Positions 4,294 through 22,235 of a stretch of DNA of 22,786 nucleotides are shown here, in pieces; the first letter of the stretch is position 1, and each line of letters begins with the position of its first letter. The notes beneath the pieces were generated by a model. That model was not told where the DNA came from. It was given only the letters and a program-made list of their open reading frames with translations, and did no database searches. This DNA comes from a virus. Made by a program: the position numbers and the translations under genes. The stretch spans positions 1-22,786 of IMG/VR virus record IMGVR_UViG_3300029268_001969; one strand, given 5' to 3'.

Positions 4294-6346
4294 GATTCTG
4301 AATCACGACTGGCGGCGCTCGTTGGTGGCCCAAGCCGTGTCCCGCGCCTTCACGCCGCCGCCGGATACAGAGATATGGGAATGGGCGGATGAGGTTGTCT
4401 TGCTTCAGAACGAGGACGCGGCCGAGCCCGGGGAATACCGCAGCAGCAAAACCCCATGGACGCGCCGCCTTCAGGTTATCATCCGCCACACGAAAATGTG
4501 GGTATGGGATTGGACCCTGTCCCGATACGTCCAGGTCAACGTCACGGAATTCAACGTCCAGAAATCCAGCCAGAGTGGATATAGCGAGGCGGCTTTGAAT
4601 GGCATTCGTTGGTTCGTGAGTTACCGCCCGCGCAATACGATCTACGCAATCGATTCGGCGGAAGAGGCAAAAAAAATCGCGCGGCGGCTGCTCAGAAGCT
4701 TCAAATTTCTCGACCAGTCCATCTTCACCGGAGATCCCGACGACATCAAAACCCTCGAGTTCCAACTCCGGGGCATGGAGCTCCTTTTCTACGGATCCTT
4801 TTCGAGCGGAAAGTTTGCGAACAAGCAGGCTCCGTTCACGGTCTCCGATGAAGTTGAGGAGCACGGGAAGTTCATTCTGGGCGATCTGGCATCCCGGAAA
4901 AAGACGAGCACCGGCGGGCTGCAAATCAATCTCTCCAAGCCGAAGCTCAAAGGCGGACCGATCAACAAGGCGTTCCTGCGCGGCAACCAGGAGGAATTCT
5001 TCGTCCCCTGCCCGCACTGCGGTCACAACCAGTTTCTGACATTTTTTCCGGAGGAACGCGACGTGCCGTTTCACGACTTCAACGATCTGATCGAGGTTGC
5101 CCCGGGCGAGTTCATGCCCCGCCCGCTCCCGCTTGGCGAGACGCGGAAGATGCGCACCGGTCGGTTTGTTTTCGACCACTGCAAAAACCTTCTTGGGAAA
5201 TGGGACCGCCTCCGCGTCCAGAACGAAACGTATTACGAGTGCGCCGCCTGCCAGGGGAAAATCGAAGAGCACCACAAACGGTGGATGTTGGATCGCGGCA
5301 GATGGCTCCCACTGGAAGTATCGAGTTCCCCGGGCATCGTCTCCCAGCATATCTCGGATTTCTATTCGGAGGATGAGCTCTCCAGCTTCGGAAAAATCGC
5401 TGACGAATACATCGAGGCCAAGCACGAGAGCCACGAACGCCTACAGTCGTTTTTCAACCACCGCTGTGGCAAGGCGTGGGCGGAGGAAGCCAATGCCACT
5501 CAGGAATCGGACATCCTCGCGAACGTTGCCGGTCGCTCGGTCTGGTTTGTGGACTCGCCAAATTCCGAAGGCCAGATCGTGCGGAACATTTTCCATGACG
5601 AGCCGAGCGCGGACCGTCTCGCGGCCGCAAATGCGGAGCGCGGAGTGGACACCCCGCCCATCTACTCGGCCTGCCAGCCATATACGCGCGGGACGATCCC
5701 ATTCGATCCCTACCGCGTGCGGGCGGACTCTCCCCCTATCCTCATTCTTGGCAGCGACGTCGGCGGCAACTACGCCCGATGGGCGGTCATCGCCATCCAT
5801 AAAAATCTCAGCGACGCGGCTGTCATCGACTGGGGCGAGGAACTGGATCCCGATTCCGTGCGCGAGCTTGCCGCGAACAAAACCTGGCCGATCCGCCTGA
5901 CCGGAGAGAAATGCCGGGTGGCCAGTGGCTGGATGGATGCCCGCTGGCGTCCGGGCGATGTTTACAAAGCCTGCCTGGCGAGCCGGGGAATCATCATCCC
6001 GACGAAAGGTCTTGGCGGCGCGGCGGCGGTCACCGTGAAGCTGTGGAGCTACGTCCACGTTACGAGCTACCACACGAGGTTTCGCGAGCTTCACTACAAT
6101 GACCAGCGGGCAAGAGACGCTCTCTATATCGACCGCATCAAGAAAATGCGCCGCCGGCTGTGGTTTCCTTCGGACGTGGAAAATGATGAGACCTTCCTCG
6201 AGGAAATGTGCGCGGAACGCCAGAAGCAGGACCGGCGCGGCAAGTGGATCTGGGATGAAAGTATCTCGGCTCCGAACCACTACGGCGACTGTGTGAAGGA
6301 AGCCATTCTCGGGCTCGACTTCATGACCCGCAATATCCGGTCCTGA
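4265..6346 (+). CDS. Terminase large subunit, GpA family
   Basis: This is the packaging motor ATPase and nuclease that cuts concatemers and pumps DNA into proheads. The 693 residues show a variant Walker A, K100-SSQSGYS-E108, close in form to lambda gpA KSARVGYSK. A Walker B-like SDEVEEH follows, with D195-E196. A zinc-ribbon-like pair of CxxC motifs is at C249/C252 and C326/C329. The nuclease domain begins around LGSDVGGN with D498 and ends with HYGDCVKEA containing D675, as expected for RuvC/RNase H-like terminase nucleases. Length agrees with the family (lambda gpA is 641). The start overlaps the preceding gene, so translation is probably coupled. GpA motors usually cut at cos sites, so cohesive ends are expected. 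Confidence 0.93.
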   Translation: MTSSASLPPEILNHDWRRSLVAQAVSRAFTPPPDTEIWEWADEVVLLQNEDAAEPGEYRSSKTPWTRRLQVIIRHTKMWVWDWTLSRYVQVNVTEFNVQKSSQSGYSEAALNGIRWFVSYRPRNTIYAIDSAEEAKKIARRLLRSFKFLDQSIFTGDPDDIKTLEFQLRGMELLFYGSFSSGKFANKQAPFTVSDEVEEHGKFILGDLASRKKTSTGGLQINLSKPKLKGGPINKAFLRGNQEEFFVPCPHCGHNQFLTFFPEERDVPFHDFNDLIEVAPGEFMPRPLPLGETRKMRTGRFVFDHCKNLLGKWDRLRVQNETYYECAACQGKIEEHHKRWMLDRGRWLPLEVSSSPGIVSQHISDFYSEDELSSFGKIADEYIEAKHESHERLQSFFNHRCGKAWAEEANATQESDILANVAGRSVWFVDSPNSEGQIVRNIFHDEPSADRLAAANAERGVDTPPIYSACQPYTRGTIPFDPYRVRADSPPILILGSDVGGNYARWAVIAIHKNLSDAAVIDWGEELDPDSVRELAANKTWPIRLTGEKCRVASGWMDARWRPGDVYKACLASRGIIIPTKGLGGAAAVTVKLWSYVHVTSYHTRFRELHYNDQRARDALYIDRIKKMRRRLWFPSDVENDETFLEEMCAERQKQDRRGKWIWDESISAPNHYGDCVKEAILGLDFMTRNIRS

Positions 6347-6356
6347 TTTCCCCGCC

Positions 6357-6363
6357 TTTGACA
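6357..6363 (+). promoter_or_regulatory. TTTGACA element before connector gene
   Basis: TTTGACA starts 10 bases after the terminase stop codon and 14 bases separate it from ATG 6378. A bulged stem, CATC (6362-6365) plus GCG (6368-6370) pairing with CGC (6374-6376) plus GATG (6377-6380), can form over the start codon. Confidence 0.6.
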
Positions 6364-6377
6364 TCCGGCGTCCCGCG

Positions 6378-6710
6378 ATGGCTGATGAATCTTTCCTCGA
6401 TGCGCTGGTTTATTACCGCACGATTTTTCCGACACTGGCGTCATTGGGAGCCGGCACGCCGCCAGCCGCATGGATTGCGGCCCTGAACGCAGTTTCCGAG
6501 GAAGCCTTTGATCCGATTACTGGCACGAGCGTGAATCTCGAAGGCGGAAGCGTCACGGGCGTGGTGAATTTTCGGCAGAAATACAAGGTGCGCGCTCTCC
6601 ATGCCCGGCGAGCGGAGCTCGATTCCAATTACCAAAATCCCTATCTGCTGCCCGCTGAGGAACCTCTTCCTCCTCGCCGCCTTGGATTCACAGTGAGGTT
6701 CGGGCCATGA
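6378..6710 (+). CDS. Small head-tail connector candidate (gpW position)
   Basis: The 110-residue protein lies between the large terminase and the portal, where lambda encodes the head-joining protein gpW (68 residues). The sequence does not clearly match gpW. It starts with an acidic, aromatic helix and ends with a basic, proline-containing tail (LPPRRLGFTVRF). Its ATG is preceded by TTTGACA at 14 bases and has no Shine-Dalgarno. Its stop overlaps the portal start in an ATGA, so the two are probably translated together. A head-joining role is inferred from position only. Confidence 0.5.
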   Translation: MADESFLDALVYYRTIFPTLASLGAGTPPAAWIAALNAVSEEAFDPITGTSVNLEGGSVTGVVNFRQKYKVRALHARRAELDSNYQNPYLLPAEEPLPPRRLGFTVRFGP

Positions 6711-8290
6711 TCGTTGATTCCTACGGCAAGCCGATCCGGTCGAAAAGCTCCGGGGGAGGGTTGAGCTGGGCGTTTGAATCAGCGCGCCAGTCCGGCTACC
6801 GCGGGTGGTTTTGGTTTCCATCCTTGGATCCCGGCCAGCAAATCACCGCCATGTCTCGCACGGAGACGGCCCGAAAAATCAACTGGGCCTACAACCACAT
6901 TGGCGCGGTCCGCGCCGTGATTGACGGCCTCGCGCTTGACGAGGTGGATACCGGCATCTGGCCGAAGCCGGCGACGAAAAGCATCGCCTTCAACTCTGCC
7001 GTCAAGCGGGCCTGGCAGCAGCAATGCGGGTTTCACAAGGCGTTCAGTGCGGACGGCGAGAACAATTTCTTTTCCGCGCAATTCATGATCCGCCGCGAGA
7101 TCCGCTTGCGCGGGGATTGCTTCGCGCAAAAGCTCCGCGCGGGCGAAGGTTCCTCCTGTCCGCAGTTGCATTTTCTCCCGGCCTGGCAGTGCGACAATGC
7201 CTATGACACGCCGCTCGATCAGACAAAATGGCGCGACGGTCGGATGGACAATTCCTTTGGACGCGCCCTGCAATGGCGGTTCAACACCGGCGGCGAGACC
7301 AAACGCTGGCTGGACCTCAGCGCGGATGACGTCATTCATTTTCATGATCCGTTCCTGATCGGTCAGAAGCGCGGGATGTCCGCGCTCGCGCCCGTCGCCC
7401 GTCAGCTTTTTTCGATGGATGACTTGGAGCGCACGGAGACGAGTGGCGTTCTCATGCGCGCCCGCATGGCCTATGCCATCGAGCGGACGGACGATGGCGA
7501 CACCTCGCCTTCGTTGCTTCCGGGTGCGAGTTCAATGGAAGTCATCACACAGGATGACGGAACGAAACTCTTCGTTCAAAAAATCGTTTCGCAGGATGGC
7601 ACGGAGGTGGACGTGGCCGATCTGCCCGCCGGAAAAAAACTCAAAGTGATCGAAAGTTCGAAGTCGAGCGAGACGTCGTCTTGGATGAAGGAATTGCTGG
7701 CCTCGATCGCCTACTGCACGCTTTACCCCCCGGATTATGTTTACAGCCTGGCCGGGCTTTCTCAGGGCACGCTGGTCCGCTTGGCGATGGGCAAGGTCCA
7801 ACGAGTGTTCAACACCGTCCGGGATTTCCAGATCATCGCTCAGGTCATCGAGGAATGGTGGCCGTTCTGGCTCTGGCAGAACATCAAGGCCGGCACGTTC
7901 AACGATGTCCGCGGCGGGATCCCGGACGAATGGTGGCCTTACCATGTCGTGCGCCCGAAGGACATCACGGTTGATGTGGGGCGCGAGGGGCGGCTCTACG
8001 ATGATCGTGTGACCACCGGGAAAATGCCGAACGGCCTGTATGTGGGCATGCTCTACGGGGAGGACAGCGAGGAGTTCGATGAACGCATCATCCGCGAGCG
8101 CGCCCGCCGGATCAAGCAGGTCGCGGAGATCGCGGAGGAGGAAGGCGTTCCCATGACGGTTGACGAAGTTTTCCGCCTGCCCGCCGGCTCCGCCGCGCCG
8201 CTTGCCGCCCCGGAGCCGCCTCCGGATGACAATCCTGATGATGATCCCAAGGCCGATCCCAAGGACTCCACCAATAAAAAATCCCAATAA
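6707..8290 (+). CDS. Portal protein, lambda gpB family
   Basis: The portal forms the dodecameric ring at one capsid vertex through which DNA enters and to which the tail attaches. The 527-residue length is almost that of lambda gpB (533), and the order terminase, small connector, portal, S49 protease is the lambda one. Visible features are the N-terminal RTETARKINWAYNH stretch followed by an AVIDGLALDEVDTGIWPKP strand region, the AQFMIRREIRLRGDCFAQ region, and DVIHFHDP with FLIGQKRGMSALAPV, typical of this portal class. The last 30 residues are a Pro/Asp/Lys-rich tail with repeated DDNPDDDPKADPKD character, probably disordered. Start at ATG 6707 by ATGA overlap with the connector; a GAGG is about 9 bases upstream. 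Confidence 0.9.
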   Translation: MIVDSYGKPIRSKSSGGGLSWAFESARQSGYRGWFWFPSLDPGQQITAMSRTETARKINWAYNHIGAVRAVIDGLALDEVDTGIWPKPATKSIAFNSAVKRAWQQQCGFHKAFSADGENNFFSAQFMIRREIRLRGDCFAQKLRAGEGSSCPQLHFLPAWQCDNAYDTPLDQTKWRDGRMDNSFGRALQWRFNTGGETKRWLDLSADDVIHFHDPFLIGQKRGMSALAPVARQLFSMDDLERTETSGVLMRARMAYAIERTDDGDTSPSLLPGASSMEVITQDDGTKLFVQKIVSQDGTEVDVADLPAGKKLKVIESSKSSETSSWMKELLASIAYCTLYPPDYVYSLAGLSQGTLVRLAMGKVQRVFNTVRDFQIIAQVIEEWWPFWLWQNIKAGTFNDVRGGIPDEWWPYHVVRPKDITVDVGREGRLYDDRVTTGKMPNGLYVGMLYGEDSEEFDERIIRERARRIKQVAEIAEEEGVPMTVDEVFRLPAGSAAPLAAPEPPPDDNPDDDPKADPKDSTNKKSQ

Positions 8291-8303
8291 ACACGTGTTT
8301 ATT
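8286..8303. repeat. 18-bp perfect palindrome centred on CACGTG over the portal stop codon
   Basis: AATAAACACGTGTTTATT is perfectly symmetric and includes the TAA stop (8288-8290) of the portal gene. As RNA it folds into a 7-bp stem with an ACGU tetraloop. It does not match parS outside the CACGTG core. There is no U-run after it, so intrinsic termination is unlikely. It may be an mRNA-processing or stability hairpin, or a protein site. Confidence 0.55.
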
Positions 8304-8309
8304 CGCCCC

Positions 8310-8332
8310 ATTTCGCATTTCACATTTTCATC
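8310..8332 (+). repeat. Short heptad array before S49 protease gene
   Basis: Units ATTTCGC, ATTTCAC and an extended ATTTTCATC run directly into ATG 8333. The stretch is nearly free of G and would be an unstructured leader. It belongs to the heptad family described in the findings, though this copy is short. Confidence 0.45.
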
Positions 8333-9148
8333 ATGAAAGCCCGATTCATTGACCGCCTGATCTCCCAGCCCTGGCACATTGGCGCCGCCCGTGGACGCAC
8401 GATCATCTCTTCCATCCTCCTCTCGGTCCTGAAAAACGAGCGCCCGGAGAAAGACATTTGCGGAAACCCTCTGCCGACGATGCAGTTTATCGGGGACGTC
8501 GCGGTGATTCCGATCAGCGGGGTCGTCATGCTGAACATCCCCGATTGGATCAAATCCTACGGGATCAATCTCACCGATCCGAACGACGTGGAGCAGGAAA
8601 TCGAGGAGGCCTTGAACAATCCCGACATCTCGGTCATCGCCCTCTCCATCGATTCCCCGGGCGGGGAAAGCATCGCCGGCGAAAAACTTTTCGACCTCAC
8701 GGAGTGCGCGAACCGCAGGAAGCCCGTGGTTTCGTTCGTTGGCGACGGGGCCCAGCTTTGCTCGTCTGCTTACCAAGCGGCCGCTCCGAGCCTGGCGATT
8801 TACGCGGGCAAGTATTCGGAGGTCGGGTGCATCGGTTCTTACCTGGCCTATCTCGATGATTCCGCGTTCTGGGAAAAGATGGGGATGATCTGGGAAACCT
8901 TCCGATCGGGAGATTTCAAGGGCATCGACGGAAAGCTGACCGAGCCGCAGCGCGAATACTTGCAGGGCCTTGTTGACGAATGCGGATCCCGCTTCCGTGC
9001 GGGCGTGAGCAAATACCGCACGTCCATCGATCCCGCCGATATGCAGGGGCAATCGTTCCGCGGCATCGAGGCGTCGCAGCGCGGATTTGTCGCGGGCACC
9101 GTGAAGGATCTCCCTGCTGCCATCGCGAAAGTCCGCCGCCTTTTTTAA
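8333..9148 (+). CDS. S49-family head maturation protease (gpC-like)
   Basis: This ClpP-fold serine protease (SppA/S49 clan) probably cleaves scaffold and other head proteins during prohead maturation. In the 271 residues, VAVIPISGVVM (56-66) is the first core strand and ALSIDSPGGE (103-112) the oxyanion strand with the family GG. LCSSAYQAA carries the likely nucleophile Ser144, and SGDFKGID carries the likely general base Lys196. The length matches a single protease domain. In lambda the scaffold Nu3 is encoded inside gene C, whereas here a separate coiled-coil gene follows. No Shine-Dalgarno is visible; the leader is a heptad-type pyrimidine stretch. It overlaps neither neighbour. Confidence 0.88.
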   Translation: MKARFIDRLISQPWHIGAARGRTIISSILLSVLKNERPEKDICGNPLPTMQFIGDVAVIPISGVVMLNIPDWIKSYGINLTDPNDVEQEIEEALNNPDISVIALSIDSPGGESIAGEKLFDLTECANRRKPVVSFVGDGAQLCSSAYQAAAPSLAIYAGKYSEVGCIGSYLAYLDDSAFWEKMGMIWETFRSGDFKGIDGKLTEPQREYLQGLVDECGSRFRAGVSKYRTSIDPADMQGQSFRGIEASQRGFVAGTVKDLPAAIAKVRRLF

Positions 9149-9149
9149 G

Positions 9150-9179
9150 CTTTCCGCTTTCCACTTTCCGCTTTCTCTT
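9150..9179 (+). repeat. Heptad array, copy of the 30-base repeat at 14625
   Basis: Units CTTTCCG, CTTTCCA, CTTTCCG and CTTTCTC plus TT fill the gap after the protease stop codon. All 30 bases are identical to 14625-14654, before a tail gene 5.5 kb away. TTTGACA follows immediately. Confidence 0.8.
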
Positions 9180-9186
9180 TTTGACA
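9180..9186 (+). promoter_or_regulatory. TTTGACA element before scaffold candidate
   Basis: TTTGACA is followed by 13 bases and GTG 9200. The spacing matches the other members of the set and is a main reason for choosing this GTG. Confidence 0.6.
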
Positions 9187-9202
9187 CGCGGCTTTCCGCG
9201 TG
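9185..9202 (+). promoter_or_regulatory. Hairpin enclosing the GTG start of the scaffold candidate
   Basis: CACGCGG (9185-9191) pairs perfectly with CCGCGTG (9196-9202) around a CTTT loop. The GTG start codon forms the last three bases of the 3' arm, so folding would hide it. This could restrict initiation, or it could mean that the real start is the in-frame ATG at 9245. Confidence 0.5.
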
Positions 9203-9733
9203 AATAAAAAACTCTTCTGTCTCTCCATCATCGGGCTTTCGCACATGTTACACGCTGCCGACAAGGGCGGCGAATCTGGCGGAGGCGGGAAAACTCTCTC
9301 CATCGAGGAACAACTCACCGCCGCTCGCAGCGAATTGAGCACCCTTCAGGGTTCCCTTTCCACGATCACCGGCGAACGCGACAAGCTGGTCATCGAGCGC
9401 GACGGCCTCAAGTCGCAGTTCGATGAAGCCACGAAAGTGGCCACGAGCGCGCAGACCGATCTGGCCACCGTGCGTGGCGAGCTGGCCACCGCGAAGGGGA
9501 ATATCACCTCGATCACCGCCGAGCGCGATTCCGCGTTTCAGAACGTCGCCCGCCTCGAGACCCTCTGCGGCGTGAAGGGCATCAAGAAGGACGCCGCCGC
9601 TTCTTCCGCTCCGGAGCTCCCGGCCATGAGCGAGGCCGATTTTGAGGCCCGCATCAAATCCGCCAAGTCGCCGTCCGAGCGCGCCGCCATCTGCTCGGAG
9701 TTCGAGCAGGCGGTCAAAGACAAGCGCATCTGA
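9200..9733 (+). CDS. Coiled-coil protein, capsid scaffold candidate
   Basis: The 177-residue protein lies between the head protease and the capsid gene, the usual scaffold place. About residues 32-120 form a long coiled coil of E, L, T, R and K heptads with two similar ITxERD segments (TITGERDKLV, SITAERDSAF). After an Ala/Ser/Pro linker comes a short charged C-terminal helical part. With the GTG start the first 20 residues (MNKKLFCLSIIGLSHMLHA) look like a Sec signal with an AxA-like LHA end, which would be strange for an internal capsid protein. A start at ATG 9245 would remove most of it. TTTGACA at 13 bases supports GTG 9200. Scaffold function is by position and coiled coil only. Confidence 0.6.
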   Translation: MNKKLFCLSIIGLSHMLHAADKGGESGGGGKTLSIEEQLTAARSELSTLQGSLSTITGERDKLVIERDGLKSQFDEATKVATSAQTDLATVRGELATAKGNITSITAERDSAFQNVARLETLCGVKGIKKDAAASSAPELPAMSEADFEARIKSAKSPSERAAICSEFEQAVKDKRI

Positions 9734-9744
9734 TCCGCCCCATA

Positions 9745-9751
9745 TTTGACA
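9745..9751 (+). promoter_or_regulatory. TTTGACA element before capsid gene (long spacing)
   Basis: This copy is 40 bases before ATG 9792, unlike the 13-16 bases elsewhere. The extra sequence contains two ATCACCG heptads (9758-9764, 9765-9771), so the spacing may have been enlarged by repeat insertion. No start codon lies at the usual distance. Confidence 0.5.
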
Positions 9752-9757
9752 GCACCC

Positions 9758-9771
9758 ATCACCGATCACCG
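9758..9771 (+). repeat. Two ATCACCG heptads before capsid gene
   Basis: ATCACCG is directly repeated and followed by looser variants up to the ATG. It is a short member of the heptad family, weaker than the others. Confidence 0.4.
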
Positions 9772-9791
9772 AAATCCGCCAATCACACCAA

Positions 9792-11225
9792 ATGAAAAAA
9801 CTGTTCGCATCCTTCCTTGTCCTGCTCTTCGTCCTCTCGCTCGCCATCACGGCGCGCGTCGCGCTTGAGCATGGTCCGCTCGCAGCCCTGACCGTATTCA
9901 TCGTCCTGGACGCCGCCATCGCCTCAATCGGCGTGGTGGGCTTTCAAATGCGCGAATACCGGCTGTTCAACCCGACGCTCATCACGAGCATTCTCACCGG
10001 CAAGGTGGCGGAGGCTTTCCGCACGAAGGTTCCCGAGCTTTCCTACTTCTCGACGGACTTTGGTAGGAACGGATCGATTTTTGCTCCGCCTGTGAAATTC
10101 GGGCAGGAAGTCATCTCACATCTGGCGATTGCTCCGACTGCCGCGGCGTTCACGCCTGGCTCCGGCCTCGGCACGGGGGCGACGAACGTCAAGGATCTGG
10201 TCGGCGACATCAAGGTCAAGATTGACCAGGCCGCGATCGTGAATATCAAGCTGCCCACTGTGGACAGCGTGAAGTATCTCCTCGAGCCGGCCTTCCAAGC
10301 CTCCATGCTCGAAGCCGGAAAGAGCCTGGGTCGCTGGGTCATCGGCAAGGTTGTTGAGAAATTCAACAAGAACAACTTCTCCAACGAGCTCGTAGCCACC
10401 GTGGCCGCTGCCGAGTATGAGACGCTCAGCCTCTCTCGTGCGAAGCTCAACAAGCTCGGAGCCCTCGCTCCCCGCTTCATCCTTGGCGAGACGGATTTCG
10501 TCCGCAACATCTCGCTCGATCCGATCGTTGCCAGCGGGGACTACCACGGCCAGCGCACCGGGGCGGATCCCTACATCACGCTCGTGAATATCGAGGGATT
10601 CGAGTCGGTCCGCGAGTTCCCGAACATGCCCAGCAACACCGTTGCCGTGGGCACTGTCACCGGGGAATCCGATGACGACAAGCTTACGCTCGTTGCTCAT
10701 GGCCTCACCGCCGGCACCCGCGTCCGCGTTGCGAATGTCGGAGGTGCGCTCCCCACGGGGCTCGCTGCCGCCACGGACTACTATGTCCGCGACGTCACAG
10801 ACGATACCTTCAAGGTTGCCGCCACTCCTGGCGGAGCCGCGATCAATCTCACCGGAGACGGCTCCGGCACGACTACCGTGTCGCGCTTCGAAGCCATCAA
10901 CGCATTCGCCGGCGAGAAACGCTCGATCCACATCGCGTTCCGTCCGTTGGACGATAACGAGAAGATGCGCCAGATGCTCGGCATCCCGCAGACCATGAAC
11001 GTCATTCCGGGCGTGGAAGCCGAGAGCGGTCTTTCCTTCACCTGGTATCTCTGGCAGGACGGCGCCGGAACCAACCCGACCGGCGACATCTATGCCGCCT
11101 GCGTCGTGGCCTTCGGCATCAAGGCCGGTCGCGAGATCGTGAATTCCGACCTGCCCGGCGAACAGGCTGCGGGCGCTGGCTTCGACAAAGCCGGTCTCCG
11201 CATCGTGGAATCCGCCGCTTCCTGA
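9792..11225 (+). CDS. Major capsid protein with N-terminal membrane extension and inserted domain
   Basis: The position after protease and scaffold, a 477-residue length and patterns such as FNPTLITSILTGKVAEAF near the start and GIKAGREIVNSDLPGE near the end indicate the shell protein; an HK97-type fold is inferred, not shown. Two oddities stand out. Residues 1-52 contain two predicted membrane helices (about 4-24 and 30-50) before an internal ATG (9948) where a normal capsid protein could begin. Residues about 284-363 form a compact beta module with VAHGLTAGTRVRV, LPTGLAAATDYYV and TDDTFKVAATPGG, interrupting the capsid domain; I know this kind of module from other virion proteins. No Shine-Dalgarno is seen at 9792. 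The head protease may remove the N-terminus. Confidence 0.78.
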   Translation: MKKLFASFLVLLFVLSLAITARVALEHGPLAALTVFIVLDAAIASIGVVGFQMREYRLFNPTLITSILTGKVAEAFRTKVPELSYFSTDFGRNGSIFAPPVKFGQEVISHLAIAPTAAAFTPGSGLGTGATNVKDLVGDIKVKIDQAAIVNIKLPTVDSVKYLLEPAFQASMLEAGKSLGRWVIGKVVEKFNKNNFSNELVATVAAAEYETLSLSRAKLNKLGALAPRFILGETDFVRNISLDPIVASGDYHGQRTGADPYITLVNIEGFESVREFPNMPSNTVAVGTVTGESDDDKLTLVAHGLTAGTRVRVANVGGALPTGLAAATDYYVRDVTDDTFKVAATPGGAAINLTGDGSGTTTVSRFEAINAFAGEKRSIHIAFRPLDDNEKMRQMLGIPQTMNVIPGVEAESGLSFTWYLWQDGAGTNPTGDIYAACVVAFGIKAGREIVNSDLPGEQAAGAGFDKAGLRIVESAAS

Positions 11226-11249
11226 CCCTTGGTCGCCCCATAGATCATC

Positions 11250-11651
11250 ATGCCTCAAGAAATCAAAGAGAGTGCGGCGGGGTTGGTGGTTTCCCGCCGC
11301 CCCGCAAAGCCCCTGGCCTTTCATGGCTCCGCTCCCGTCGCCCAGCGCGCGGGGGCGGCACAGGCGCTCGTTACCAAGGGCACTGGCGCGGTGCTTGGCG
11401 GTTCGCTCACTGGAACTCTTTCCGGTGCGCTCGCGGATCTGGAGGCAATCGCCCTCTCCACGTCGGACACTTACTCCGACGCCGCGGTCAACGGGGCGGT
11501 CAATGCCGTCATCACTGCCGCGAACTTGCAGAATAAAGAGATGCAGGCTCGGATCAACCAGCTTGTGGCGGACAACGCCGCGAGCATCGTTCTCGTCAAC
11601 GAACTCCGCGCCGCCCTGGTCGAAAAGGGCCTCATCAAAGGCGCAGCTTAA
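11250..11651 (+). CDS. Small virion-associated protein after capsid gene
   Basis: I do not recognise this 133-residue protein. Residues 1-40 are basic and variable in character, 40-60 are rich in G, A and T, and from about residue 65 the sequence becomes a helical segment ending in IKGAA (ITAANLQNKEMQARINQL, then ELRAALVEKGLIKG), suggesting a C-terminal coiled coil. The place after the capsid gene suits a decoration or head-fibre protein. The leader has no Shine-Dalgarno but carries CGCCCCAT (11234-11241), also found before the protease and capsid genes. Confidence 0.65.
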   Translation: MPQEIKESAAGLVVSRRPAKPLAFHGSAPVAQRAGAAQALVTKGTGAVLGGSLTGTLSGALADLEAIALSTSDTYSDAAVNGAVNAVITAANLQNKEMQARINQLVADNAASIVLVNELRAALVEKGLIKGAA

Positions 11652-11654
11652 GCC

Positions 11655-11987
11655 ATGCCTCAATTCCGCATCGCTGTTGGCTACCGCACGGCGCACCGCC
11701 GCAGTGAGCCGGTGATCATTGCTTCCGGGTTCTCTCCGGAGGAAGTTCAACTGGCCGTGGACAATTGCGATCCGTCTTTTGAACGCATTGAGATGGGTGC
11801 CTTCCACTTCATGCGCAAGGGCCGTCGCCGAAATTCTATAAACCCAAACCGAAGCCGGGAAGATGCTCCGCAAGCTGCTGAATCGGGTCTCTCTCCTACC
11901 TCTTCTGCGCCGGAGCAGCCCGGCGCAGAGGAACTTGAGGACGGCCCGTCTTTGGTTCCCCTTCCGGATCGCCGCCGCCGCAGATGA
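11655..11987 (+). CDS. Uncharacterised small protein
   Basis: The 110-residue protein starts three bases after the previous stop codon. Residues 1-55 look folded (IAVGYRTAHRRSEPVIIASGF, then FERIEMGAFHFM). Residues 60-105 are polar, rich in P, S and E, and the protein ends with five arginines. No family is recognised. The stop overlaps the next start in ATGA. Co-translation with head-completion genes suggests a virion or assembly role. Confidence 0.6.
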   Translation: MPQFRIAVGYRTAHRRSEPVIIASGFSPEEVQLAVDNCDPSFERIEMGAFHFMRKGRRRNSINPNRSREDAPQAAESGLSPTSSAPEQPGAEELEDGPSLVPLPDRRRRR

Positions 11988-13324: not shown

Positions 13325-13888
13325 GTGACCGGTAGCCTTGTTCAAATTCACGATCATGAAGATCCTTTGCGTTCAGATGTGACTCTTCTCATAGCCGCAT
13401 TGCTCACCCTTGGCATTCCATCTGCCGGCGGCGAGCTTTTTTATTCCACCTGCGAGGCCAAGTCCGGAGAGCTCGTCATCGATTCGGTCTGGACGCTCAA
13501 GGGCGAGAGCCGCGATGGGCGATTCGATACCGGAACCATGCGCGCCGCCTGGAACGATTCTCCCTGGCTGCTCGCGAATCCCAAGCATCCGATCGCGATC
13601 ATGCGCTGCGGGCTTTCCTACCAGCGCGCATTTTCCTACACGCCGCGGTTCACGCTTACTGAACTCGCCACGATTGAGAAGCCTGATACCTGGATGGAAG
13701 CGGCGATCCGCAACCTCATCTTCATCCTCCGCGAGCTCCCGGCTGTCCCACTACGCGGGGCCGTGCGCTTCGGGCCTGACTGGGCCGCGTTCGTCCCGCA
13801 AAATCTTCCCGAGGATCGGCGCACCCGCTTCCTCAAATACGTCGAAACCCAAGACCCCAACAAACGGAGAGCCATCCTAAGATCATGA
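13325..13888 (+). CDS. Uncharacterised tail-region protein
   Basis: The longest frame starts at GTG 13325 (187 residues). GTG 13379 is an alternative start; no TTTGACA or ribosome binding site decides. It begins with a hydrophobic helix (LLIAALLTLGI), then mixed strands with conserved-looking Trp and Tyr (WTLKGES, WNDSPWLL, GLSYQRAFSYTPRFTL), and a helical C-terminus ending in basic residues. I do not recognise a family. It lies between the tube candidate and the tail chaperones, and its stop overlaps the chaperone start in ATGA. A tail tube or tail completion role is possible by position. Confidence 0.6.
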   Translation: MTGSLVQIHDHEDPLRSDVTLLIAALLTLGIPSAGGELFYSTCEAKSGELVIDSVWTLKGESRDGRFDTGTMRAAWNDSPWLLANPKHPIAIMRCGLSYQRAFSYTPRFTLTELATIEKPDTWMEAAIRNLIFILRELPAVPLRGAVRFGPDWAAFVPQNLPEDRRTRFLKYVETQDPNKRRAILRS

Positions 13889-14382
13889 ACAACCGAGAAT
13901 CCAAAAACGCCCTCGCCTTCCTCGACAGCATCGTCACGGCGGGAGGGTTCAGCCTCCGGCCTCCCGGTTACTTCACCGTCAATGCCCTGCGCACGCTCGA
14001 CATGAAGCTGGGAAAGGGAAAGGACGTGTGCGCCACGCTGAGCGAATCGGCCATGAAGGAACAGGTTCATGCGTTCCTGTTCATCCAGGCCGCTCCGCTC
14101 GATACCGTCTCGCGGGCGATCCGCTTCTACGACCGGCTTGTCTCGCCGCGCGGCGATGCCGTGCCGCTTTCTCCGGATGACGCATGGGATGAGTTCATGA
14201 TCAAGTTTGTCGATCCCTTTCTGGCGCAGATCCCGCCGGAGGGCATCGCCGCCGCCTACGAGCAGCTTGGCACGCTTGACGAGGCCGATGCGGCTGTGGT
14301 GGACGCCAAGCCGCCCGCCGATGCCGGAAGGGAACGCCCGGACCCAAACTCCTTGAGCCAGGGTGGCTCGCCTGCCGAGTAG
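13885..14382 (+). CDS. Tail assembly chaperone, short form (gpG-like)
   Basis: The 165-residue protein lies two genes before the tape measure and contains the frameshift site, the usual arrangement of G/GT tail chaperones, which bind the tape measure and tube subunits during tail assembly. The N-terminal 130 residues are mainly helical (SKNALAFLDSIVTAGG, VHAFLFIQAAPLDTVSRAI, AWDEFMIKFVDPFLAQI), and the last 30 are polar and Pro/Ala-rich. ATGA overlap with the gene before. Most ribosomes would end at TAG 14380-14382 and some would shift to the -1 frame at 14343-14349. Confidence 0.65.
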   Translation: MNNRESKNALAFLDSIVTAGGFSLRPPGYFTVNALRTLDMKLGKGKDVCATLSESAMKEQVHAFLFIQAAPLDTVSRAIRFYDRLVSPRGDAVPLSPDDAWDEFMIKFVDPFLAQIPPEGIAAAYEQLGTLDEADAAVVDAKPPADAGRERPDPNSLSQGGSPAE

Positions 14383-14621
14383 CCGCCCTGGCCGAAGCCT
14401 TCCACTGGAGCGAGGAATTTATCCTCTTCCGCCTCCCGCTCTCCCGCGGGGAGCAATACTACCACTGGCTCCTGCGTCGCGCCCGCTGGCGCACCTACGA
14501 ACCGGCAGAATCCGCCGTGGATCAGGTTGCCAAGCTTGACACCGCCCTGCTCGCATGGCCGGCACGCGCGGTTGATCCCGAGGTCGAAGCCGCTTTCCAA
14601 CGGTTCAAAGCAAAAACATGA
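13885..14621 (+). CDS. Tail assembly chaperone, frameshifted long form (gpGT-like)
   Basis: The predicted -1 frameshift at 14343-14349 joins 155 residues of the short form to 90 residues of the -1 frame, giving 245. The -1 frame is open from 14280 to TGA 14619-14621 and has no ATG, GTG or TTG near its beginning, so it is unlikely to be translated by itself. Its content looks real: helical, with Trp-rich motifs (EAFHWSEEFILFRLPLSRGEQ, YYHWLLRRARWRTY) and a charged C-terminal helix. In lambda the T part contacts the tail tube while the G part contacts the tape measure. The fusion is inferred from the slippery site, the structure and the frame layout. Confidence 0.65.
14343..14392 (+). promoter_or_regulatory. 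Programmed -1 frameshift signal
   Basis: The heptamer CCCAAAC (14343-14349) is in the right phase: zero-frame codons CCA and AAC slip to CCC and AAA. Seven bases later GCCAGGGTGGCT (14357-14368) pairs with AGCCGCCCTGGC (14381-14392), a 12-bp stem with one T-G wobble and a 12-base loop. A smaller alternative stem is GAGCCA (14355-14360) with TGGCTC (14364-14369). Both spacings (7 or 5 bases) suit known stimulatory stems. The zero-frame stop TAG (14380-14382) spans the end of the loop and the first two bases of the 3' arm. Confidence 0.7.
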
Positions 14622-14657: not shown

Positions 14658-15329
14658 ATGAAGCTCGACGCCTCTGATCTCCGCAATGCGATCCGCCGCC
14701 TGGCCGCCGAGACAAAGAAAGCCCCGCGCGAAGTCTGCGAGACCGCCGCCCGTGGGTTCATTCGCGATGTCGTGAAGATCACCCCGCCCGGATCCGCAGG
14801 GGTATCCGGTTCCGCAGCCAAGAAGGCGGGCGAGGCGGGCATCCGCATTGGCCTTGCCAGCATCATGGTTGCCGCTGCCAAGGGGTTCAACGGCCCGTTT
14901 GAAGATCCCGCCGATGTCCACGCCCGCACCCGTAATCCTCGCACCGGACGCACGGACAAGCGCATTTTGACCGGGGCTCTGCGTGGATCTGGGAAAGTGT
15001 CGGTAGATGTCGCCACCCTGCGCGCATTTGAAAAGAAACTTCTTGCCCTTGTAGGCATCCTTTCCGCCGGATGGAATGCTGCCGCCGAAAAACTTGGCGT
15101 GAAGCTCCCCGCTTGGGTTTCCAGGCATGGCGCTTCACGCGGGTCCGTGGTGGTAAAAGTGGATGCCTATAAATTCAGCATCACGCTCAACAATGAGGTC
15201 AAGTTCGTCGGTAATGTGAAGGACTACGAGCGCCGTGTTTCATGGGCCGTAAAAAATCAGGCAAAGAAGATGGACCGGCAATGTGACTTCCTGCTGAAGA
15301 AGGCCATCCGCGCCGCCGGTTGGCTGTAG
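14658..15329 (+). CDS. Uncharacterised tail protein before tape measure
   Basis: The 223-residue protein lies between the chaperone pair and the tape measure. It opens with a charged helix (LRNAIRRLAAETKKAPREV). An Ala/Gly-rich middle follows, with HARTRNPRTGRTDKRILTGALRG at about 94-115. Near residues 155-185 come RGSVVVKVDAYKFSITLNNEVKFV strands, and a basic helix ends the protein. I do not recognise a family. A minor tail role is inferred from position. Start at ATG 14658, three bases after a heptad array and without Shine-Dalgarno. Confidence 0.6.
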   Translation: MKLDASDLRNAIRRLAAETKKAPREVCETAARGFIRDVVKITPPGSAGVSGSAAKKAGEAGIRIGLASIMVAAAKGFNGPFEDPADVHARTRNPRTGRTDKRILTGALRGSGKVSVDVATLRAFEKKLLALVGILSAGWNAAAEKLGVKLPAWVSRHGASRGSVVVKVDAYKFSITLNNEVKFVGNVKDYERRVSWAVKNQAKKMDRQCDFLLKKAIRAAGWL

Positions 15330-15351: not shown

Positions 15352-16920
15352 GTGGCCAAAGCGACAGCAACATTCGATGCCAACGATAGTCCCATCCAGG
15401 CGGCATTCCGCCGGGTGGACAAGTCGCTTCTTGGTCTTGAAAAGAAATTTGTTTCAGTCGGGAAGTTTGCCGCAAAGCTCCTCGCGCTTCCGGCTGCCGC
15501 TGCCGGTGGTCTGGCCCTTGGTGTCGGCAAGGTTCTTGATATTGGTGGCGACCTGAGTGATCTCAGCGCCCGCACGGGCGTCGCCGCGGGCGAGCTGGCG
15601 AAACTCCAGCAGGAGTTCAAAAACAACGGCAAGGCGGCGGAGGATGTCGGTCCGGTCATCAACAAGATGCAGAAGTCTCTGGCGACCGGTGCCGGGGCCG
15701 ACACGATTGCCAAGCTCGGGCTCAACCTGAACGATCTGAAAAAACAGGCTCCGGTTGACCAGTTCCATGCCATCGGCGAGGCGCTCAACCGGATCGATGA
15801 TCCTGCTCAGAAATCCGCCGCGGCGATGGATATTTTTGGAAAGAGCGGGGGCGAGTTGCTCGCCTTGTTCGCCTCCGGGGGATTCGGGGATGCCGCCGCG
15901 CAGGTCGGTGGACAGGCGGATTTGCTGAGCAAGGATGCCGCGCTCTTCGATGATGTCAGCGACAAGCTCGCGCTGGCTGGGCTCAAGGTTCAAGGCTTCT
16001 TCGTCGGAGTCGCCGACAAGGTGGCTCCCGTGCTCAAGCCGATCCTCGACGGCCTGGCCGGCATGGATTTTTCCGCGCTTGGCCAACAGGTCGGCACGAT
16101 CATCGCCAATCTGGTTCAGGCGGTTTCCGATGGAACCATCGGGGAGATCTTTTTCACGTCGCTGAGCATCGCATTCCAAAATGCGGGCAATGTGTTGGTG
16201 GGGATTTTCGTCGCGATTGGAGACACCATTCTGGCGATCCTTGCCATCCCGTTCAAAAATGCCTGCACGATTTTTGAAATCCTGACCACGCCCGATTTCT
16301 GGCTGGGCTTGGGATCGGCTCTTATGGGCATTGCGAAAGGCTTCATCGCCATGATGCTTGATGGGGTTGCTTTGCTTCTCGAAAAGCTCTCTAAGGTTCC
16401 CGGCCTCGGAAAACTCTCGGGGGCGGCAGAGGCTATTCGTGAGAAAGCGCAAGGCATTCGCACCAGCGGACAGGAAGACCGATCGTCCGCGTCCGGCCTT
16501 CTGGGCCCCGTGCTCGAAAAGGCAAAGCAAAACACCGCGAAGGCCCTGCAAGATGTGCTCGACGCACCCGGAAAAGGTTATGCCACAGGCTCCAAAGTTT
16601 TCGATACCTCGGGCGATCAATCCCGTCTCGATGGCATCTGGGCCGGAGTTGCCAATAATGTCCAGGCCGTCAGCGAAAAGGCCCTGAAAGACGCCGCTCC
16701 TGCGAAGTCTGGATTGCCCGGCCTCGATGTCGATATGGGCAGCGGCAAATCGGCGGTTTCCGCATTGCAAAAAATCGGCGGCACCTCCGGTGGCGTTGGT
16801 GGAGATCCGCTGCTCAGTGAAACAAAAACCACGAACGGACTGCTCCGCGACATCCGGGCTGCGCTCAAGTCCGATGGCGGTCGCCCGGGTTCGCGTGTGG
16901 CGGTATTTGGAGCCGCCTGA
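15352..16920 (+). CDS. Tape measure protein
   Basis: The tape measure sets tail length and is later released with DNA. The N-terminus (PIQAAFRRVDKSLLGLEKKF) is the typical coiled start, followed by a hydrophobic Ala/Gly/Leu stretch (about 38-65), the segment DLSDLSARTGVAAGELAKLQ with EFKNNG, and from about residue 265 several hydrophobic helices (IAFQNAGNVLVGIFVAIGDT and following). The C-terminal 150 residues are Ser/Ala/Gly-rich. At about 0.15 nm per residue, 522 residues imply a tail near 80 nm. GTG start by TTTGACA spacing. The next gene starts two bases after the stop. Confidence 0.85.
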   Translation: MAKATATFDANDSPIQAAFRRVDKSLLGLEKKFVSVGKFAAKLLALPAAAAGGLALGVGKVLDIGGDLSDLSARTGVAAGELAKLQQEFKNNGKAAEDVGPVINKMQKSLATGAGADTIAKLGLNLNDLKKQAPVDQFHAIGEALNRIDDPAQKSAAAMDIFGKSGGELLALFASGGFGDAAAQVGGQADLLSKDAALFDDVSDKLALAGLKVQGFFVGVADKVAPVLKPILDGLAGMDFSALGQQVGTIIANLVQAVSDGTIGEIFFTSLSIAFQNAGNVLVGIFVAIGDTILAILAIPFKNACTIFEILTTPDFWLGLGSALMGIAKGFIAMMLDGVALLLEKLSKVPGLGKLSGAAEAIREKAQGIRTSGQEDRSSASGLLGPVLEKAKQNTAKALQDVLDAPGKGYATGSKVFDTSGDQSRLDGIWAGVANNVQAVSEKALKDAAPAKSGLPGLDVDMGSGKSAVSALQKIGGTSGGVGGDPLLSETKTTNGLLRDIRAALKSDGGRPGSRVAVFGAA

Positions 16921-18237: not shown

Positions 18238-19147
18238 GAAAAATCTCCGCGATCTCATCAAGCGGCGCGATGACAAGTTTCTCGCCGATGACTGGAATTC
18301 CCTTGTCCAGCAAGGCCGGAGCCGCTGCCTCAACCCGGGCGTCGTCAACTCGCAGGCTCCGGATCCGCCATTCGAGTGGAAGGTTTCCGCCGCGCGCTTC
18401 GATGAACGCCTAAAGTGGAAACTCTTCATCGGTCCCGGGTTCATCAATGACTCGGTCCCGAGCATCTCCTACCTGAAAAAGGACGATCCGCGCGGATGGG
18501 AGAAGCCCTCCGATTACCCGGAGCCGAAACCCGGGGAATCCGGATACAGTGAACATTTCATTGATCGCGATCTGTTGGAGGAAGATCCGCCGTTCCTGCT
18601 TGTCGAGGCTCCGCAGGCTGCGTCCGGAAACGAGGATTTTTCTCCGGTCGCCGATTCCGCCCGCATCCCGTATTTTCAGACCGCCGAGATGTGGGAGAAA
18701 ACGATCTTCCGGGCGCATGTGATCCTTGTGGCCGCGCCGCTGCGTGCGACGTTCTTCCCGGCGTCCCTTCCCCCGCCGCCGCTCGCACGCTACCGCCTGG
18801 CCGCGGTGCCGCGTCCATTGTCGCGTTCCTTCGGGGCGCTGGCCGGCGGCTGGGTGGAGATCGCCCGCCTGTTTCTCGTGCGGGAGGAAAAGGACGGCCC
18901 CGCCGGAGACCGCCTGCTTGTCCAGCAACGCGAGTTCCACAACCTCGCCGCCTCGATCGTGCGCCCGCATCAGGAATTCGCCGCCGGGCCGATCTCCACT
19001 CAGAGCTTCGGAGGCATCGGCGCGGGCCTGGCGGATTCCTTTGCCATGGGCATGGCGGATTCCTACAACGCCTTCGTTTCCCAGGTCCAGGCGGAGATCG
19101 ATAACATCCTCTTCACCACCGCCAGCGTCGAGTTTTGGACGGTCTGA
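18236..19147 (+). CDS. Uncharacterised tail-associated protein (303 residues)
   Basis: The N-terminal 40 residues are basic and helical. The middle contains FIGPGFINDSVPSISYLKKD, then DPRGWEKPSDYPEP, YSEHFIDRDLLEEDPPFLLV and IPYFQTAEMWEKTIFRAHVI. Towards the C-terminus are Ala/Gly-rich turns (FGGIGAGLADSFAMGMADSY). The order of dense aromatic and acidic segments suggests a folded structural protein. I do not recognise the family. The place before the fibre gene suggests a distal tail or baseplate component. Confidence 0.6.
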   Translation: MKNLRDLIKRRDDKFLADDWNSLVQQGRSRCLNPGVVNSQAPDPPFEWKVSAARFDERLKWKLFIGPGFINDSVPSISYLKKDDPRGWEKPSDYPEPKPGESGYSEHFIDRDLLEEDPPFLLVEAPQAASGNEDFSPVADSARIPYFQTAEMWEKTIFRAHVILVAAPLRATFFPASLPPPPLARYRLAAVPRPLSRSFGALAGGWVEIARLFLVREEKDGPAGDRLLVQQREFHNLAASIVRPHQEFAAGPISTQSFGGIGAGLADSFAMGMADSYNAFVSQVQAEIDNILFTTASVEFWTV

Positions 19148-19283
19148 AGAAAATTAGAAATGTGAAATTAGAAATTAGAAATTGGGCCGCACAGCGTCCA
19201 AGTGCCGCGCGGGCGCGGGATTCTTCCATTCCGCATTCCGCATTCCACATTCCGCATTCCCTTTGACACCTCCGGTGTCTTCG
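19148..19283 (+). repeat. Intergenic block with two five-unit heptad arrays and TTTGACA hairpin
   Basis: The first array (19151-19185) is AAATTAG, AAATGTG, AAATTAG, AAATTAG, AAATTGG, which is the 12919-12953 type inverted. After a GC-rich stretch with no frame of note comes a second array (19227-19261): CATTCCG, CATTCCG, CATTCCA, CATTCCG, CATTCCC. Then follow TTTGACA (19262-19268) and a hairpin GACACC (19265-19270) / GGTGTC (19274-19279) with a TCC loop, ending four bases before ATG 19284. Confidence 0.75.
19262..19268 (+). promoter_or_regulatory. TTTGACA element before 58-residue gene
   Basis: TTTGACA lies 15 bases before ATG 19284. Its last four bases belong to the 5' arm of a perfect 6-bp hairpin, so element and hairpin overlap here. 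Confidence 0.55.
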
Positions 19284-19460
19284 ATGCCCGCTCGCACCGT
19301 TGTTGAAAATCCGCCTCCTCTGACCCCGCGCGGGACTCGCCCCGTGCGCCCGTTCCCGTTTTCCTGGCTCCGGCAGTTTGCCGGGCTCACGCCCCTTCTC
19401 GCCACATCGCCCATTCCCGACGAATCCGAGCCCAACCCTCTGCGCTACGAAAATGCATAG
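19284..19460 (+). CDS. Small proline-rich protein (58 residues)
   Basis: A start at ATG 19284 is preferred over upstream frame extensions because TTTGACA lies 15 bases before it. The 58 residues are proline-rich (NPPPLTPRGTRPVRPFPF) and contain one short hydrophobic segment, with no recognised motif. It sits between tail genes and is followed by a heptad array and the fibre gene. It may be a small tail or accessory protein, or a chance frame in a GC-rich gap. Confidence 0.4.
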   Translation: MPARTVVENPPPLTPRGTRPVRPFPFSWLRQFAGLTPLLATSPIPDESEPNPLRYENA

Positions 19461-19463
19461 TCC

Positions 19464-19498
19464 CTTTCCGCTTTTCGCTTTCCGCTTTCCGCTTTTCT
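19464..19498 (+). repeat. Five-unit CTTTCCG heptad array before fibre gene
   Basis: The units are CTTTCCG, CTTTTCG, CTTTCCG, CTTTCCG and CTTTTCT, then C and ATG 19500. It belongs to the same type as 9150-9179 and 14625-14654 but is not identical to them. Confidence 0.8.
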
Positions 19499-19499
19499 C

Positions 19500-22235
19500 A
19501 TGAGGCTGGATCTCCACATCGATCTGCAAAACCGGGTGTTGATCCCGGACCCCGAGACCCGCGGGGCCGTCGCCCTCAATTTCATGCAGGGCGACACTTA
19601 CGAGGTTGTTCTCCACGGCTGGCGTCCTGTGACCAACTCGGCGTCGTTTGCGCTTTATGAAGCCGCCAGCATCGCATGGCACACGCTCGCAGCGGGAGTG
19701 CTGCTCATTGACGCGGCTCCAAAAGGCGGCACATTCAAGGTCAAGATCGGCGACGATTCCACTGCCGCCCTCGATTGGGATATCTCTAAAACCGCTCTCG
19801 CCGTCGCGCTGAATGCCCTCGCCTCGGTCACTGCCGCCGGCGGACTCACGATCCTCGAGGACGGCCCGGAGCATTTCTACATCGTCCAGTGGACGATCCC
19901 GGACAATGCGATCGAAATCGAATTTCCGATTGACGATAACAAGTTGACCCCGCTTTGCATCCCGCAGGTGCGGGTGGATGAAGCGATCTCGGGCAAGGTC
20001 AACCTCAAGCTCGTGCGGGCCCCGGTCGCGTTCACGAACCAGTTTGCCTTGCCAGCTCCTCCGGCAGTCACGGTCACCCGCGTGCGGGCGGGCAGCGCGC
20101 TGCGCAACGAGGTCCAGCGGCTGACGATCCCCGCCGCGGCCGTGGGCAGCTTCGCGCTGGCCAGCGGCAAGGTGCTCCCCGTTTCCACCGTCACGGCCTC
20201 CGCGATCGCGGATTCCCTCAACGCGCAATACACCGCGCTCGACGCTGCCGATATCCGGTATGTGGTCACCGCGCGGGATCGCGGGCTTTTCGATATCGAG
20301 TTCATCGGCGCGTTTGCCCAGACCGCGAAGGATCTCACGGCGGTAGAAATGTTCGACCAGGTGGCGATCGATTCCCCTACGGCCTCGCTGCCGTTCACCT
20401 CGACGGCGATCGAGGATGTCCTCGCCGGGGCGCGAAACATTCCGATGGTCTTTGAGATCGTCGCCGCTGACGAGGCGGGCGCTGAGGATACCATCGTCCA
20501 ACAAGCCTGCACGCTGATCAACGATGGGCTCAGTGCCGGAGTTGCCGCCTACATCGCCGCTGTGGCCACCCGCACGGATACCGTCTATGTCTATCCCCTC
20601 GAGACCGATCCCGTTGCCATCGGTCTCCTCGGGCAAAAGTTCTCCACTCCGGCCCTGGCGGAAGATTTCGTTTACACGCACGATTTCAACACCCGTGAGG
20701 TTGAGGTTGTCGTGCTGGAAAAAATCGCCGATGCCCCGGATAAGTTCCGCCAGGTCATGGATGACGAATTCGAGGTGGACGTCATCAATGCGAATCAAGT
20801 CCAGGTCTGGTTCGGAAAAGAGATCCCCGCCTCCCCGGCTCTTGGCAGCATGAATGTCTGGGTGCGCTCGCTCAACGCGATGCCGATCCTCAATGCCCAC
20901 CGGCACCCGACTGACCAGGTGGACGGCGTGGGCGCTCGCGATGGCCAGACGCTCACGGAGATCATCGAGGAGCTTTACAACAGCCTCCCGGCTGATTGGC
21001 CGAACATCCCGGCCAGCAAGATCATCGGCTCCCTCCTGTGGAGCCAGCTTGGCGGGCTCATCCCCGATGCCAAGATCCCCGTCAACATTCCCCGCCTCAA
21101 CGCCGGCGGCTACCTGGACATCTCCACGATCCCGCTCACGGTTCCCCGTCTGGATTCCGAAACCGGCGAGCTCGTCTATTGGGGGCTCAATACCGAAACC
21201 GGCGAGCTCGAACGCCGCGTGCTCGCCGATGCGGATGGCCTTCTCAACGCCGATCGCTTCGGCGATCTCTCCCGCATCCCAGGGTTTGCCGATGCCGTGA
21301 AAAAGGTTCTCTCCGGAGACGCGGCCAATGACCTGGCTCTCACGTTCGCGCTGCCGTCCTATCTGGAGCTTTACCCTGGCCGCGCAACAGCTGTCGCGGG
21401 CACGCTGGACGCCACGGTCCTGCCGACGTCTGGCACATTGATTCCCGCGGTGCGCAGCGCGACTGCCACGAACAAGGAAATGATCGGAAGCCTCGACGCT
21501 GCCACGCTGCCCCGCCCCGGCGGACTCCTCCCGGCGATCCACGATGCCACGATAGCCAACCTGACAATTCCCATTCCGGCCCCTGGCGCGCCCTACACGG
21601 GCAACGTTTACCTCAATGCGTCGGGTGCAGAGGTCTCATTGTCGGGAGGCATGGGTCGCAAGGGATCGAAGCTCAAGGCGGGCGAGCACGCGGTCTGCGA
21701 TGGCCGTCTTTGGTATCGCGTCGCCCGTGAGGGAACGACAACCAGCTACCACCCGACAGATTTCGAGCGCGAGCTTCTCATGCTCGACGTGAACGGCTCG
21801 ATGTTCCCTGTCGGATCGCTCTTCACCCTTCAACTGGATTTTGAGACGCAGATCATTCGCAGCGAGACCCGTGCGCAATGGGTGCTCATTGTGGAGATCG
21901 GAGCCTTTGCGGCGGTCGCCGGCGGCGCGGGAACCAACATCTCGGGCATCACATGGGGCGCGACTCCGGTCATCTCCTGCCCGATGCATCTGACCTCGAT
22001 CCGGACCCCGCACACGTTCGGCGTCCGCTTCACCTGCGGGTCCGCTACGATCGCGGGCGAAACCAAACTCTACCGCGGCGCATGGGCCACGACCGCTGTC
22101 GTTCCCGCCGGCCCTGGCTTCGCGGTCCGCGCCCGCCTCGCCCGCTTCGACACGGAGGACAGCCTCGCGGATCCCCGCGGCTACGTGTTCCTCGCCTTCA
22201 ACCCGCACAAGAAATCCTTGGCTACCATCGTTTGA
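19500..22235 (+). CDS. Large tail fibre / receptor-binding protein
   Basis: The 911-residue protein is probably the main distal fibre that contacts the host surface. The N-terminal 450 residues hold Ala/Thr/Val-rich beta modules; two segments, about 85-140 and 205-265, share an alternation of SALAVALNAL-like helix and TAAGGLTI-like strand. At 465-476 lies NAHRHPTDQVDG, a His-rich motif form often seen in tail fibres. A 29-residue tandem repeat follows (634-662 and 663-about 690, each with LDA-TLP, G-L-PA, AT-N), then a beta-rich C-terminus with a WYRVAREGTTTSYHPTDF segment. A short repeat with ETGEL occurs at about 555-580. Start ATG 19500, three bases after a heptad array, without Shine-Dalgarno. 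Confidence 0.7.
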   Translation: MRLDLHIDLQNRVLIPDPETRGAVALNFMQGDTYEVVLHGWRPVTNSASFALYEAASIAWHTLAAGVLLIDAAPKGGTFKVKIGDDSTAALDWDISKTALAVALNALASVTAAGGLTILEDGPEHFYIVQWTIPDNAIEIEFPIDDNKLTPLCIPQVRVDEAISGKVNLKLVRAPVAFTNQFALPAPPAVTVTRVRAGSALRNEVQRLTIPAAAVGSFALASGKVLPVSTVTASAIADSLNAQYTALDAADIRYVVTARDRGLFDIEFIGAFAQTAKDLTAVEMFDQVAIDSPTASLPFTSTAIEDVLAGARNIPMVFEIVAADEAGAEDTIVQQACTLINDGLSAGVAAYIAAVATRTDTVYVYPLETDPVAIGLLGQKFSTPALAEDFVYTHDFNTREVEVVVLEKIADAPDKFRQVMDDEFEVDVINANQVQVWFGKEIPASPALGSMNVWVRSLNAMPILNAHRHPTDQVDGVGARDGQTLTEIIEELYNSLPADWPNIPASKIIGSLLWSQLGGLIPDAKIPVNIPRLNAGGYLDISTIPLTVPRLDSETGELVYWGLNTETGELERRVLADADGLLNADRFGDLSRIPGFADAVKKVLSGDAANDLALTFALPSYLELYPGRATAVAGTLDATVLPTSGTLIPAVRSATATNKEMIGSLDAATLPRPGGLLPAIHDATIANLTIPIPAPGAPYTGNVYLNASGAEVSLSGGMGRKGSKLKAGEHAVCDGRLWYRVAREGTTTSYHPTDFERELLMLDVNGSMFPVGSLFTLQLDFETQIIRSETRAQWVLIVEIGAFAAVAGGAGTNISGITWGATPVISCPMHLTSIRTPHTFGVRFTCGSATIAGETKLYRGAWATTAVVPAGPGFAVRARLARFDTEDSLADPRGYVFLAFNPHKKSLATIV

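Follow-up and report, generated by a model that had tools for sequence, protein, structure and literature searches.

Locus and gene neighborhood

The window analyzed here is a 22,786-nt stretch of the IMG/VR virus record IMGVR_UViG_3300029268_001969. It carries two overlapping forward-strand frames, G and a −1 extension T, between a putative tail-tube gene and a tape measure gene (Table 1). The 187-aa gene upstream overlaps the ATG of G by 4 bases (ATGA). In the ORF list, no ATG/GTG/TTG ORF of at least 60 aa begins within 14383–14621 on the + strand. The tape measure match is clear and the tail-tube match is weak (E 0.042). The original prediction placed the pair before the tape measure; the tape measure is indeed downstream, with a 223-aa gene (14658–15329), for which no family match was found, lying in between.

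Table 1. Features of the G/T locus, in window coordinates.
Feature	Coordinates	Strand	Basis
Putative tail-tube gene, 110 aa	12961..13293	+	Weak PHROGs major tail protein match (E 0.042); position and conservation in relatives
Conserved 187-aa gene upstream of G	13325..13888	+	ORF; homologues at same position in relatives
G, 165-aa putative tail assembly chaperone, product of normal decoding	13885..14382	+	ORF; homologues in relatives
Purine patch GGAAGGGAA, possible internal Shine-Dalgarno-like stimulator (tentative)	14326..14334	+	Position-specific anti-Shine-Dalgarno pairing
Slip heptamer C_CCA_AAC	14343..14349	+	Phase; X_XXA_AAC in 54/60 distinct sites
T, −1 frame extension, 90 codons + TGA, predicted only as G-T fusion	14349..14621	+	Open frame without early start; pN/pS 0.17; alignment
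Hairpin 5′ arm (12 bp)	14357..14368	+	Fold z −4.5; covariation
TAG stop of G frame, 11 codons past heptamer	14380..14382	+	ORF reading
Hairpin 3′ arm	14381..14392	+	Folding; covariation
Conserved 223-aa gene between T and tape measure	14658..15329	+	Homologues adjoin T in relatives
Tail length tape measure protein	15352..16920	+	PHROGs tape measure (E 4.7e-16)

Elsewhere in the window, the ORF at the usual major-capsid position (9792–11225) matches tail-fibre/baseplate families only at residues ~293–363, which suggests an inserted domain. Long antisense ORFs on the − strand at 7532–9244 (570 aa), 10116–11873 (585 aa), and 19113–21542 (809 aa) lie opposite structural genes and are probably a by-product of GC-rich coding sequence.

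Reading frames, slip heptamer, and relatives

CCCAAAC (14343–14349) lies near the end of ORF 13885–14382 and, in the frame set by ATG 13885, reads C_CCA_AAC, a phase that fits tandem −1 slippage. No other XXXYYYZ heptamer in the stretch has both frames open. The −1 frame runs open over 14280–14621, with 90 codons beyond the heptamer (14349–14618) before a TGA. Its first ATG, GTG, or TTG is GTG 14517, the 57th codon. The phase and the long open frame lacking an early start had both been predicted, and both were borne out. ORF geometry is weak evidence, because five window heptamers have a comparable arrangement when both strands are counted; the heptamer rises above chance because it is conserved in relatives.

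Two queries, the tape-measure protein and the gene that separates it from T, were used to fetch relatives without presupposing a frameshift. Searching with G alone found no relatives. The sole locus returned by T alone was spurious. Sixty distinct sites, the window included, match a T-domain profile at >30 bits; the profile was built from alignments containing the two heptamer codons, a slight circularity, though it also picked up sites lacking the heptamer. The relatives were examined for cases in which the heptamer or the −1 frame had been lost. X_XXA_AAC is kept at the same codon in 54 of the 60 sites, as CCCAAAC (36), AAAAAAC (12), or GGGAAAC (6), and is absent from about 5–6 divergent sites; remaining T-matched sites include CCCAAAA, GGGGGAA, and AAATTTT. 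The first triplet thus swaps among CCC, AAA, and GGG, altering the residue and keeping the homotriplet, as expected for a slip site and not for a protein motif.

The −1 frame is under strong purifying selection. Its pN/pS is 0.17, against 1.4 and 2.5 in the two other frames (107 pairs, 75–98% identical, not mutually independent). The first 20 residues of T proteins align without gaps, with the consensus PKLIEPxWxASxVFxLA.

An apparent loss of T in locus L039 was rejected: the chaperone region lies ~6 kb further upstream, with CCCAAAC and the T frame intact. On the same record (L112, about 4832–10575), ~5.7 kb of mainly reverse-strand frames splits the post-T gene from the tape measure, unlike other relatives, where the two are adjacent. 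The claim of conservation covers relatives with a T-family match; about 20 more distant tape-measure relatives have none. Other candidate −1 sites occur among distant relatives, with GGGAAAG in L080, L103, and L107 and CCCAAAA in L031. At L080:3605, L103:3598, and L107:3540, a different T-like −1 frame (GKVxGxxxEYV) follows the lambda-type GGGAAAG, which suggests that heptamer and T domain were both replaced.

Putative stimulatory elements

RNA folding recovered the predicted 12-bp stem (14357–14368 / 14381–14392) after a 7-nt spacer. The window fold at 14350–14399 has −28.5 kcal/mol (z −4.5), and 0 of 200 shuffles were as good. RNAalifold gave no consensus fold on 34 diverse sites, and the analysis turned to folding individual sequences and counting pairs directly. 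Of 10 individually folded sites, nine reach z −3.3 or lower, L065 among them through a different stem; in L008 a strong stem was not found by this method. In 34 distinct sequences, pairing at the positions of the window pairs is seen in 79% of cells; sliding by up to 3 columns gives 30–44%. Changes on both sides that keep pairing occur in 37 cells versus 13.5 in shuffles; the count of pairs showing a double change (6) is not above shuffles. When synonymous codons are swapped between sequences site by site, leaving the proteins unchanged, pairing falls from 485 to 456 ± 3 of 594 (z 8.9). These scores overstate significance, because the controls take no account of relatedness among the sequences. 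The hairpin is conserved and covarying, with pairing above the level expected from synonymous codon choice. A stable structure begins 7 nt past the heptamer, within the 5–9 nt spacing of hairpin-stimulated sites, with conserved pairing though no RNAalifold consensus.

Anti-Shine-Dalgarno pairing is strongest shortly before the heptamer, in segments ending 6–9 nt before it (37 non-redundant sites). The peak mostly follows from the amino acids and exceeds a synonymous null only modestly (z −2.7), and a stimulatory role for the purine patch is tentative.

A 0-frame stop lies directly 3′ of the heptamer in 34 of the 60 sites and one codon later in 14. Among the X_XXA_AAC sites, 44 of 54 have a stop within 2 codons, versus 21 ± 3 expected when T codons are drawn synonymously. 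The window itself has no adjacent stop: it reads CTT GAG, against CTA GAG in relatives L009, L025, and L028, and its G therefore continues for another 11 codons. For comparison, the mean heptamer-to-stop distance is 26 nt in SEA-PHAGES chaperones (PMC10885494) and 36 nt in the Xu set, as quoted in that paper. Rous sarcoma and barley yellow dwarf viruses have a natural stop in the same position after the slip site (PMC4373837). This eukaryotic system resembles most relatives, and not the window, in its stop immediately 3′ of the slip heptamer; it differs in its eukaryotic ribosomes, polymerase expression, and unrelated genes. In bacteria, a stop engineered after a −1 site lowered slippage and raised RF2 abolished it, which was taken as evidence for post-translocation slippage (PMC4373837). 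The stop in the phage family may tune slippage or may just bring G to an early end.

Probable host and choice of heptamer

All relatives from genome collections are in Verrucomicrobiota assemblies, so the window virus probably infects this phylum. On E. coli ribosomes, heptamers ending in A_AAG form the strong class and AAC heptamers are weaker; in roughly half of the bacteria known there is only one tRNA-Lys (PMC5009743). The genome of Chthoniobacter flavus, home to a related prophage, encodes tRNA-Lys UUU and CUU, tRNA-Asn(GUU), and tRNA-Pro UGG, CGG, and GGG. From this one genome, it may be hypothesized that a dedicated tRNA-Lys(CUU) lowers the slipperiness of AAG, which would explain AAC. 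We regard the following extension as speculative and rather unlikely as a whole: that the adjacent stop is a working part of the signal, with post-translocation slippage while the stop is in the A site, so that release-factor supply would help set the ratio of G to G-T, and that the AAC heptamer is adapted to hosts in which a dedicated tRNA-Lys(CUU) reduces slippage on AAG.

The C. flavus assembly also has 17 tRNA genes within 10 kb (G007:C52:145000-155000), many with low tRNA-model scores. The array repeats anticodons, Lys CTT, Lys TTT, and Asn GTT among them, that the genome also has at other places, and it may belong to a mobile element.

Protein identity and known systems

Searches of G and T against Pfam and PHROGs, and of G against PDB sequences, returned no match. 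AlphaFold models of G and T are helical (mean pLDDT 80 and 92), and fold searches with them gave no significant match. The chaperone assignment consequently rests on arrangement, signal, and selection rather than homology, and the pair is apparently an undescribed chaperone family.

The locus resembles lambda gpG/gpGT in having two overlapping frames before the tape measure and a −1 shift site at a heptamer near the end of G, expected to yield a short G and a rarer G-T fusion. It differs in its X_XXA_AAC heptamer, where lambda has G_GGA_AAG, in the conserved covarying hairpin of the family, and in the gene between T and tape measure, and no sequence or fold match was found. Certain tailed-phage shifts seem to lack stimulators (PMC5009743). 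The G-T sites of haloarchaeal HCTV-1 and HCTV-2 share the AAC second codon, as G_GGA_AAC and A_AAA_AAC (PMC5009743); their hosts are archaeal, and C_CCA_AAC is the commonest form in the window family. CCCAAAC with a strong stem had been called a distinct version of the lambda signal. That description suits the family, given its AAC second codon, hairpin, and adjacent stop, and is less apt for the slip sequence, as G/GT slip sites are known to vary and GGGAAAC and AAAAAAC occur in archaeal tailed viruses (PMC5009743).

The cultured Akkermansia phage Moulinsart (ON453896), obtained by induction from its lysogenic host A. muciniphila YL44 (PMC10197239), shares the layout: its AAAAAAC has a TAG after it, and it has a strong hairpin, a T-family −1 frame, and a tape measure downstream. 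It has more genes between T and the tape measure, and the C-terminal half of its T has diverged. Its G and T are annotated as two separate hypothetical proteins. A search of mainly open-access literature found no prior report of a CCCAAAC frameshift or of Verrucomicrobia tail assembly chaperones.

Proposed mechanism and alternatives

We conclude, with a probability of about 0.93, that the locus is a lambda-type G/GT tail-assembly-chaperone pair expressed by predicted programmed −1 ribosomal frameshifting. An in-phase X_XXY_YYZ heptamer lies near the end of the first ORF, and the second ORF is in the −1 frame, has no start of its own, and is conserved as protein. Phase, the open −1 frame, conservation, selection, the covarying hairpin, and gene neighborhood all support the original prediction of such a pair; slippage itself, its rate, and the chaperone role are what we infer. 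Most ribosomes would finish G at the TAG at 14380–14382. While a ribosome occupies C_CCA_AAC, the hairpin 7 nt downstream would resist unwinding, and the upstream purine patch perhaps helps slippage. In a minority of ribosomes, tRNA-Pro and tRNA-Asn would re-pair one base back (CCC AAA), and these would read 90 more codons to make a G-T fusion. By analogy with lambda, G may bind the tape measure, and tail-tube subunits may be recruited by the T portion of the fusion, the less abundant product.

T could instead be a separate protein, started within the overlap or by re-initiation after G terminates, with no fusion made. Some ATG, GTG, or TTG does lie between the upstream stop and codon +15 in 36 of 54 T frames, and Moulinsart is annotated with two separate genes. 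However, 18 of the 54, the window among them, have no such start, and the first usable start in the window (GTG 14517) falls after the conserved half of T. Independent expression also leaves the conserved in-phase homotriplet heptamer and the hairpin spacing unexplained, and we consider it improbable.

Two further explanations are less probable still, each to the point of being negligible. The first is that one gene was split by a recent frameshift mutation or by a sequencing error, which is conceivable in a lone contig; T alone also lacks a start. Yet 60 distinct sites, drawn from many samples, isolates, and MAGs, are all broken at this codon, and the products of both frames are under selection, so the relatives refute this reading. 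The second is that RNA polymerase, not the ribosome, slips to change the frame; a few divergent relatives have longer A runs, such as CCCAAAAAAA in L104. Runs known for transcriptional slippage are well above three bases, whereas no homopolymer at the window site exceeds three, and the phase and hairpin spacing fit the ribosome.

Significance

The G/GT arrangement and −1 slippage are already known; the AAC second codon, the covarying hairpin, and a stop within 2 codons (44/54) are distinctive. With this locus, a textbook recoding system gains what is apparently an undescribed chaperone family, one whose T domain is missed or split by annotation. It offers >50 natural versions of one site, in which homotriplet, nearby stop, and hairpin vary together, and the inducible Akkermansia muciniphila prophage provides an experimental system. 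Because adjacent stops, previously engineered in bacteria, occur here naturally, the native sites could serve to study whether tRNAs slip before or after translocation.
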